Below are positions 20,809 through 21,980 of a DNA stretch of 36,018 nucleotides, in pieces. Made by a program: the position numbers and the translations under genes. Each line of letters starts with the position of its first letter. The first letter of the stretch is position 1. This DNA comes from Saprospirales bacterium (lineage in GTDB: Bacteria; Bacteroidota; Bacteroidia; Chitinophagales; CAMDFR01): the NCBI GenBank assembly GCA_947464015.1, contig CANHVE010000005.1, forward strand, positions 1-36,018, given 5' to 3'. The notes below the pieces were generated by a model. It was not told the DNA's origin. It saw only the letters and a program-made list of their open reading frames with translations, and did not search any database.

Positions 20809-21084
20809 TTGGTGATATGTTTTACAAAGTTAACGGTTTGCGGGCTTGCGAAGGTGGCGAATATACCACAAATGTTTAATGGATGAGAAATCAAATATAA
20901 TTTATAAAAATTAATTTTGGTATGGGGGTGGGTTTTTAGTGCTGAATGTTTGGGAGAAACACGCTTAATAAGAGAGACTGAGTTGGTAACAATAGAAGAT
21001 TCCTTCTGAAGGACGGTGCGGGAAAGTGAATTGTTAGATGAAAATAAAATCTGTATTGAATAAAAAAAATCTACAAACTTGCAT

Positions 21085-21155
21085 GTCATTCAGAAGGAAA
21101 CTACCATAATAAGAGAGACTGAGTTAGTAATAAGGGTAGTTGCCTTCTGCATGAC
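21085..21155. repeat. Long imperfect inverted repeat/hairpin element (21-nt arms, 29-nt spacer)
   Basis: Left arm gtcattcagaaggaaactacc (21085-21105), right arm ggtagttgccttctgcatgac (21135-21155); 19/21 complementary. Confidence 0.85.
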
Positions 21156-21249
21156 GGTGGTGGTGGTGTGTGTGTAGCGTGACAAGCCTTTCTGCATGAC
21201 GTGGGGGGCGGAGTGTCCTTCTGTCTCGAGTGTCTTATAACCCGATTTT

Positions 21250-21320
21250 CCTTCAGAAGGAATCTACCATCATAATGAAGACTGAGTTAGTAATAAGGGT
21301 AGTTGCCTTCTGCATGAAGG
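21250..21320. repeat. Second copy of the hairpin element, partly diverged arms
   Basis: ccttcagaaggaatctaccatcataatgaagactgagttagtaataagggtagttgccttctgcatgaagg; shares GACTGAGTTAGTAATAAGGGTAGTTGCCTTCTGCATGA with the 21085-21155 copy. Confidence 0.85.
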
Positions 21321-21386
21321 TGGGGGGGGTGTGATAGAGGCGTGAGAAGCCTGATGAAGGACGGTGTGGGAGAGTGATTTTTAAAT

Positions 21387-21420
21387 AAAAAAAGCTTAGT
21401 ATTTCTACTAAGCTTTTTTT
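21387..21420. terminator. Perfect hairpin with A/T tracts (bidirectional Rho-independent terminator-like)
   Basis: AAAAAAAGCTTAGTA TTTC TACTAAGCTTTTTTT: 15-bp perfect inverted repeat, 4-nt loop, T7 run on either strand. Confidence 0.88.
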
Positions 21421-21500
21421 GCGGACCGTCTCGTCAATATTATAATTGACGAGATCGAACCCGTCTCGTCTACTCCAAAGAGTTGACGAGATGACAGGGC
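21421..21500 (-). other. Degenerate tRNA-Asp 3'-half-like segment with two inserted TCTCGTC/GACGAGA hairpins
   Basis: Minus strand: GCCCTGTCA-TCTCGTCAACTCTTTGGAGTAGACGAGAC-GGGTTCGATCTCGTC-AATTATAATATTGACGAGA-CGGTCCGC, then AAAAA; GCCCTGTCA, GGGTTCGA and CGGTCCGCAAAAA also occur in the same order in the intact tRNA-Asp at 21807-21880. Confidence 0.7.
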
Positions 21501-21745
21501 TAGCTTTCGCTTATTAATTTTACTAAGGATCTTCTATTTAATTTTTTTATTCTTTTCTCTTCAATAATCGCATCTCGTTTACTTGGCATTTCTTTCTGAA
21601 ACACCAATTTCCATGGTCTTTTTGTAGATGTAAATTTAGAATCACCAGCGTTATGTTCTTCTAATCGACGTAAAACATTTTCAGTGATGCCTTTATAGTA
21701 ATCACCATCTAATTCGCTTCTTAATATGTAAATAAACCAAGCCAT
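21500..21745 (-). CDS. GIY-YIG family endonuclease (small single-domain)
   Basis: MAWFIYILRSELDGDYYKGITENVLRRLEEHNAGDSKFTSTKRPWKLVFQKEMPSKRDAIIEEKRIKKLNRRSLVKLI; YIL..YKG and E/N.G...T...PW.LV pattern. Confidence 0.95.
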   Translation of the reverse strand: MAWFIYILRSELDGDYYKGITENVLRRLEEHNAGDSKFTSTKRPWKLVFQKEMPSKRDAIIEEKRIKKLNRRSLVKLISES

Positions 21746-21762
21746 TTCAATCTATATATAAT

Positions 21763-21795
21763 AAAAAAACCTCGTAAATCTTTCGACTTACGAGG
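21763..21795 (-). terminator. Rho-independent terminator downstream of tRNA-Asp
   Basis: Minus strand: CCTCGTAA GTCGAAAGAT TTACGAGG TTTTTTT. Confidence 0.85.
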
Positions 21796-21806
21796 CTTCA
21801 TTTTTG

Positions 21807-21880
21807 CGGACCGGACGGGACTCGAACCCGCGACCTCCGCCGTGACAGGGCGGCATTCTAACCAACTGAACTACCGATCC
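21807..21880 (-). tRNA. tRNA-Asp (anticodon GTC)
   Basis: Minus strand GGATCGGTAGTTCAGTTGGTTAGAATGCCGCCCTGTCACGGCGGAGGTCGCGGGTTCGAGTCCCGTCCGGTCCG; acceptor, anticodon (CCGCC CTGTCAC GGCGG) and T stem pair; CCA not encoded. Confidence 0.97.
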
Positions 21881-21980
21881 AAAATCTATTTTTCAAGATT
21901 TAGGACTGCAAAGGTAAATATTTTTTTTCAAAATCATACTTTTTTTTCAAGAAAATTAATTTTACAAGATTAGTCGCCCT

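Follow-up and report, generated by a model that had tools for sequence, protein, structure and literature searches.

A GIY-YIG nuclease gene between an intact tRNA-Asp and a palindrome-bearing tRNA fragment: a candidate minimal homing-type element of tRNA genes in Bacteroidota

Integrative elements and prophages that attach at tRNA genes restore the tRNA 3' end on insertion and leave a partial copy of the tRNA at their far end. We know of no tRNA association for the GIY-YIG proteins of the UPF0213/YazA/YhbQ class. In T-even phages, the free-standing GIY-YIG homing endonuclease SegB is encoded beside tRNA genes (PMC13096335). SegB cuts within tRNA genes at the motif RAWTSGAAC, drives tandem amplification of a unit of tRNA-Tyr and segB, and has microhomology between the tRNA 5' end and the segB 3' end (PMC13096335). 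We read the motif as the complement of the tRNA T-loop. The mORFs of fungal mitochondria, first reported for Allomyces atp6, combine an endonuclease ORF with a substitute for the C-terminal part of the host gene, whose native 3' part ends up downstream; in one case, Glomus atp9, the endonuclease is of the GIY-YIG type (PMC3630166).

The locus described here lies in a 36,018-nucleotide stretch of DNA from a Saprospirales bacterium (hereafter the window) and reads on the minus strand. A putative promoter motif of the Bacteroidota type, TAccTTTG (21909-21916), recognized from the sequence and from motif statistics over relatives, precedes an intact tRNA-Asp(GTC) (21806-21880; ARAGORN; Rfam RF00005, 68 bits). 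A first terminator hairpin (21763-21795) follows, and then the gene for an 81-residue, single-domain, UPF0213/SLX1-like GIY-YIG nuclease (21500-21745; Pfam PF01541). This gene has no promoter motif of its own, and the final base of its TAG stop codon is the first base of a tRNA fragment. The fragment consists of three collinear tRNA-Asp pieces split by two inverted-repeat inserts of 26-28 nt. The piece GCCCTGTCA from the anticodon region (21492-21500) is followed by palindrome 1, TCTCGTC AACTCTTTGGAGTA GACGAGA (21464-21491), which replaces tRNA bases ~39-50; the T-arm piece CGGGTTCGA (21455-21463) is followed by palindrome 2, with inverted-repeat arms TCTCGTC AATTATAATATT GACGAGA (21429-21454). 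The 3' end piece CGGTCCGCAAAAA, that is CGGTCCGC plus AAAAA (21416-21428), runs into a second terminator hairpin (21387-21420).

The GIY-YIG gene is the sole ORF between the two tRNA copies, and the ORF list contains no tyrosine recombinase gene there. We rejected a group I intron carrying a homing nuclease, because Rfam at the gathering threshold gave only the tRNA and no intron RNA around the ORF. The intergenic DNA past the element (20960-21380) holds dispersed-looking repeats, with TCATGCAGAAGGCAACTACCCTTATTACTAACTCAGTC present twice (about 21320 and 21155) and parts of CCTTCTGAA inverted.

The likeness of the window fragment to the tRNA is well beyond chance. When the tRNA plus 5 nt is compared with the segment, collinear exact matches of at least 8 nt total 30 nt, against 17 nt for the best of 2000 dinucleotide shuffles and 16 nt for the best of 2351 other window segments. 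The three collinear pieces also dispose of the idea that the GTCA match belongs to a common intergenic repeat. Likewise, the palindromes are not chance hits of an abundant dispersed repeat: the arms TCTCGTC/GACGAGA, common to both, have no other copy in the 2.66-Mb assembly. For comparison, CCTGYCTGCCGRCAGRCAGG occurs in 14 of 100 genomes at 1-16 copies, and TCCCG..CGGGA ranges from 0 to 188 per genome. The original prediction, made from these letters alone, had given the same order of tRNA, terminator, nuclease gene, tRNA fragment and second terminator; ARAGORN, Rfam, PF01541 and the shuffles bear it out. Its description of the fragment as a tRNA 3' half holds for the match to tRNA-Asp and has to be amended for the two palindromes that cut the half into three.

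The encoded protein belongs to the GIY-YIG superfamily (PF01541, E 2.4e-16) and has the catalytic Tyr, Gly, Arg and Glu of the domain. Eight positions are invariant among 28 relatives, including Y6, Y17, G19, R27, H31, E63 and K67. The best PDB matches of the profile are the UPF0213 proteins 1zg2 and 1ywl, then SLX1, with I-TevI weak. Structure prediction from the single sequence was of poor quality (pLDDT 60, all helix).

The layout recurs widely. Used as a query, the window protein has matches in 59 of 100 related genomes and in 238 of 396 sampled Bacteroidota genomes. An intact same-strand tRNA lies at most 100 nt upstream of 54 of the 134 GIY domains in the related genomes, and an opposite-strand one upstream of none; downstream, the corresponding numbers are 12 and 0. 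Among the 69 domains with an upstream tRNA within 600 nt, the downstream match to the same tRNA exceeds all 100 shuffles in 50 and every other-isotype control in 42. The expectation that small GIY-YIG genes elsewhere would sit beside tRNAs with a partial copy of the same tRNA is thus upheld. Host isotypes include at least Asp, Asn, Met, Pro, Arg, Ser, Val, Phe, Leu, Ala, Glu and Lys. The layout is also present in Patescibacteria: at L035 (Peribacteria) it involves tRNA-His, and the nuclease is followed by a 3' fragment of 21 nt; at L036 the nuclease lies between inverted repeats. Locus L011 has a series of several degenerate tRNA-Asn copies around its two GIY-YIG genes, and in some of them only the anticodon-loop bases are missing.

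Phage, plasmid and viral collections gave no support for a vehicle of these kinds. The layout of nuclease near tRNA was not found in the collections searched, no viral contig with the nuclease was found in the viral ones, and phage and plasmid relatives of the nuclease are less than 43% identical (the plasmid hits include yazA).

The nuclease clades are isotype-specific across bacterial families. On a tree of 184 domains (72 columns, many forks without resolution), isotype changes 39 times, compared with 97.4 times for shuffled labels (minimum 92), and changes of family number 87. In 91 of 136 cases a protein has the same isotype as its closest relative outside the family (14.9 with shuffled labels, maximum 26). 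The window protein groups with Asp-associated proteins of families f18, f21, f22, f25 and f28 and with one fragment assigned to Ser. These patterns are indirect evidence that the nuclease lineage is site-specific.

A sister clade of 34 GIY-YIG proteins is without tRNA association; the tree requires 10 changes between tRNA and none, compared with 41 when shuffled, and outside this clade about nine in ten proteins sit at a tRNA gene or fragment. In stretches reaching 500 nt to either side of the nuclease gene (L045, L051, L046, L054, L050, L069, L030, L095 and L101), long inverted copies of dispersed intergenic repeats, for example GTCATCCTGAGCCTGTCGAAGGGTGCGCGC, enclose many members of this clade. 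These flanks suggest a link between GIY-YIG nucleases and the palindromic repeats of Bacteroidota.

The element comes in two mirror forms. In form A, as in the window, the intact tRNA comes first, then the nuclease and then a 3' tRNA fragment; in form B a 5' tRNA fragment is followed by the nuclease and then the intact tRNA. Form A fragments nearly always run to the tRNA 3' end, and most form B fragments begin at tRNA base 0 or close to it. The nuclease stop codon falls in or at the fragment in 69 of 100 form A units, and inside the intact tRNA in 12 of 18 form B units, six of these being a TAG at tRNA position 21 in the D loop. Across loci the fragment begins anywhere from tRNA base 0 to about base 60. 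This spread, together with the mirror form that displaces a 5' half, contradicts the earlier proposal of insertion fixed at the anticodon loop. Six loci (L203, upstream of its tRNA-Asn, and L201, L202, L204, L040 and L043) carry a palindrome-bearing 5' tRNA fragment between promoter and intact tRNA; in L201, L202 and L204 its palindrome has the position and, exactly or nearly, the sequence of that in the 3' fragment.

The promoter motif is placed to serve the whole unit. The 90 nt before the intact tRNA contain TAnnTTTG in 35 of 74 form A loci, and those before the 5' fragment contain it in 8 of 18 form B loci. It is rare elsewhere: 2 of 74 between tRNA and nuclease in form A, 2 of 18 before the intact tRNA in form B, and 31 of 625 at random positions. 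Because the motif sits only upstream of the unit, the promoter of the tRNA seems to serve all of it, which supports nuclease expression by read-through from that promoter, as first proposed.

Palindromes are a regular part of the fragments. Inserts of at least 8 nt interrupt 82 of 125 distinct tRNA fragments, and 42 of the 82 inserts contain a mismatch-free stem of at least 6 bp (3% from shuffles); 31 of the remaining 43 fragments also contain a palindrome of the same kind. Often a palindrome replaces a tRNA arm exactly, at bases 27-44 or 50-58. Within an isotype and across families, related nucleases have their palindromes at similar positions: none of 1000 permutations gave a correlation as high as the one observed, and the median difference is 1 nt for close nuclease pairs and 11 nt for far ones. 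The palindrome is at tRNA-Asp bases 38-50 in the window's group (L010, L029, L123), at 50-59 in other Asp elements, and at 25-35 or 35-47 in tRNA-Asn. Palindrome sequences are alike within a lineage (TCCGCC..GGCGGA for Met, TCCCGATTTATAATCGGGA for Val) and widely different between lineages. Val palindromes keep their pairing through two-sided change (TTCCGA/TCGGAA versus TCCCGA/TCGGGA). The stem excess and the clade-tracking position lead us to regard the palindrome as part of the element; passive decay of the fragment, as the original prediction had it, is rejected on the same grounds.

Some of these fragments pass for genes. ARAGORN scores palindrome-bearing fragments as tRNA-Ala(cgc) at L123 (1278-1352) and as a second tRNA-Phe at L191 (1388-1460), so that tRNA annotation counts may be inflated by such stumps.

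Some relatives have the site without the element. In congener G003, an orthologous upstream gene (53% identity), tRNA-Asp and a terminator occur with neither nuclease nor fragment, which supplies the empty site that had been looked for. In another genus, three species have the element at a tRNA-Asn locus beside a PfkB-type kinase gene and one has the locus empty; a further species has only a palindrome-bearing 5' fragment upstream of tRNA-Asn, without any nuclease (L203). The same locus is empty in a related genus. The element is therefore found at its presumed target, with homologous sites lacking the gene in relatives. A remnant without nuclease, counted from the outset as evidence against homing, exists in this one case; it reads as a relic or a partial insertion because true empty and occupied sites are present in the same genus. 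A search of the window's genome for the reciprocal empty site at tRNA-Phe gave short matches only.

The terminators fit a replacement part that was carried in. The first terminator of the window differs from that of the congener and probably arrived with the element; the second is probably the displaced native one, since its flanks AAAAAAAGCT...AGCTTTTTTTAT are those of the empty site L121. More generally, the terminator of the last unit is similar to the first in 36 of 70 cases and unrelated in 33, the latter (the window among them) as expected if the native terminator was displaced. That the first terminator is so often unlike the one after the displaced fragment accords with the original view that a terminator came in with the replacement tRNA part. 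Plain tandem duplication contributes as well, because many last terminators resemble the first. Near-identical units of ~320 nt form arrays, among them one of five units at tRNA-Asp (L181) and one of four at tRNA-Pro (L170), and array-internal units have a terminator similar to the first in 25 of 28 cases.

The fragments match their own hosts. Their last 16 nt agree with the host's own tRNA at 15.0 positions and with same-isotype tRNAs of other families at 8.75 (p 4e-12), in a test partly biased by the anchoring of fragments on the own tRNA. The fragment is thus the host's own tRNA end, or gene conversion keeps the likeness. Nor is the tRNA sequence left of the palindrome foreign, since both sides fit the own tRNA better. 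A nuclease lineage common to several families coexists with a fragment that matches each host.

We propose that these loci are minimal homing-type mobile elements that parasitise tRNA genes, keeping an intact tRNA and displacing the native end, and we put the probability of this reading at roughly 0.7. A free-standing Slx1/UPF0213-like nuclease specific for one isotype would cut the empty tRNA gene, and recombinational repair from an occupied copy would insert a replacement tRNA part, a terminator and the nuclease gene. The intact tRNA would stay by its promoter, and the native other part (here the 3' end with its terminator) would be pushed beyond the nuclease gene, itself expressed by read-through. 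The hairpins would ruin the displaced copy as a tRNA and might remove the cut site; they may shield that copy from cutting, or may be recognized by the Slx1-like enzyme. Tandem stacking would reflect repeated events or recombination between copies. Some observations count against homing. The protein has no separate DNA-binding domain as a source of isotype specificity. Moreover, the window tRNA-Asp and that of the empty site in G003 are the same across 75 nt, so that the former has no immunity mutation, and the donor should be cut too if its intact tRNA keeps the target.

The principal alternative is duplication by the host, in which unequal crossing-over copies a tRNA plus GIY-YIG unit, surplus tRNAs decay and the nuclease is a repair passenger. 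Its premise is that tRNA genes are recombination hot spots, and it would account readily for arrays of identical units, for fragments that match the host's tRNA and for the many last terminators equal to the first. However, isotype-specific nuclease clades across many families, and a sister clade of the same nuclease without tRNA, speak against it; random decay is not expected to give clade-specific palindrome positions; and single-copy loci with an unrelated second terminator, together with empty sites, require insertion rather than duplication alone. We consider it improbable.

Two further readings concern what the protein recognizes. It might act on the tRNA itself, as a toxin or processing enzyme, with the palindrome-bearing, tRNA-like transcript as decoy or antitoxin. 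The isotype specificity, expression from a tRNA promoter and a conserved stump with strong hairpins (the predicted RNA in the window, terminator included, reaches -52 kcal/mol) agree with this. Yet GIY-YIG enzymes are, to our knowledge, DNA nucleases, and the nearest solved relatives include SLX1 and I-TevI; 5'-stump mirror forms, tandem arrays and presence or absence at orthologous tRNAs point to mobility, and palindrome sequences vary widely between lineages, so that we hold a role at the RNA level to be very unlikely. Slightly less likely still is an element directed by hairpins, whose Slx1-like nuclease recognizes the palindrome as a cruciform or single-stranded hairpin and targets tRNA arms as hairpins too. 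In its favour, UPF0213 apart, the closest relatives of known structure are the structure-specific SLX1 endonucleases; palindromes often take the exact place of a tRNA arm; Val palindromes keep pairing; and members of the sister clade without tRNA often have inverted repeats at their flanks. Nevertheless, structure alone would not explain isotype specificity.

If homing at tRNA genes is correct, one of the commonest small proteins annotated 'GIY-YIG nuclease family protein' in Bacteroidota (238 of 396 genomes) is a tRNA-gene parasite that spares the host gene. A large unexplained gene family would become testable as homing elements, compact isotype-specific nucleases would be available for study, and many pseudo-tRNAs and tRNA-adjacent repeats would be explained. 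It would also raise the questions of how a domain of 80 residues selects a single tRNA and what function the conserved palindromes have. A broader version, which we regard as speculative and rather doubtful, is that selfish elements of ~320 nt are spread across the phylum, with the Slx1-like nuclease and palindromic tRNA stump forming a single unit that homes to one isotype, leaves the tRNA functional and employs its hairpins as address or protection; the sister clade would do likewise with dispersed palindromic repeats, whose missing mobiliser would be the GIY-YIG protein.

How does the element compare with the described systems? As in tRNA-integrating islands and prophages, an intact tRNA is left with a partial copy at the far end, but those use a tyrosine recombinase and the ~320-nt unit holds only a GIY-YIG gene. 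The protein resembles UPF0213/YazA/YhbQ in its single domain, its size (81 residues, in a class of about 80-110) and its best PDB matches, and differs in that about nine in ten proteins outside one sister clade are at a tRNA gene or fragment. Like segB, the GIY-YIG gene adjoins tRNA genes and its units are tandemly amplified; unlike it, the gene is found on chromosomal contigs, in isotype-specific lineages across a bacterial phylum, rather than in a phage tRNA gene cluster, and the unit holds a disrupted tRNA stump with palindromes instead of a tRNA gene. As with mORFs, a replacement gene part appears with the native one displaced, on the evidence of two terminators, the own-tRNA match and the empty-site comparison. 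Theirs are mitochondrial protein genes with neither tRNA nor palindrome, whereas here the host is a bacterial tRNA gene; and the part that mORFs bring in is of foreign, diverged sequence, in contrast to the displaced part here, which matches the host. In the open-licence PMC literature (no preprints) we found no published description of this element class, and the combination of bacterial tRNA genes, isotype lineages and palindromes would appear to be new to that literature. If homing is right, the element would parallel, in bacteria, the gene-part-replacing elements known from fungal mitochondria. By analogy, each part of the proposed mechanism has a precedent: SegB for cutting and amplification, and mORFs for the replacement of a gene part.
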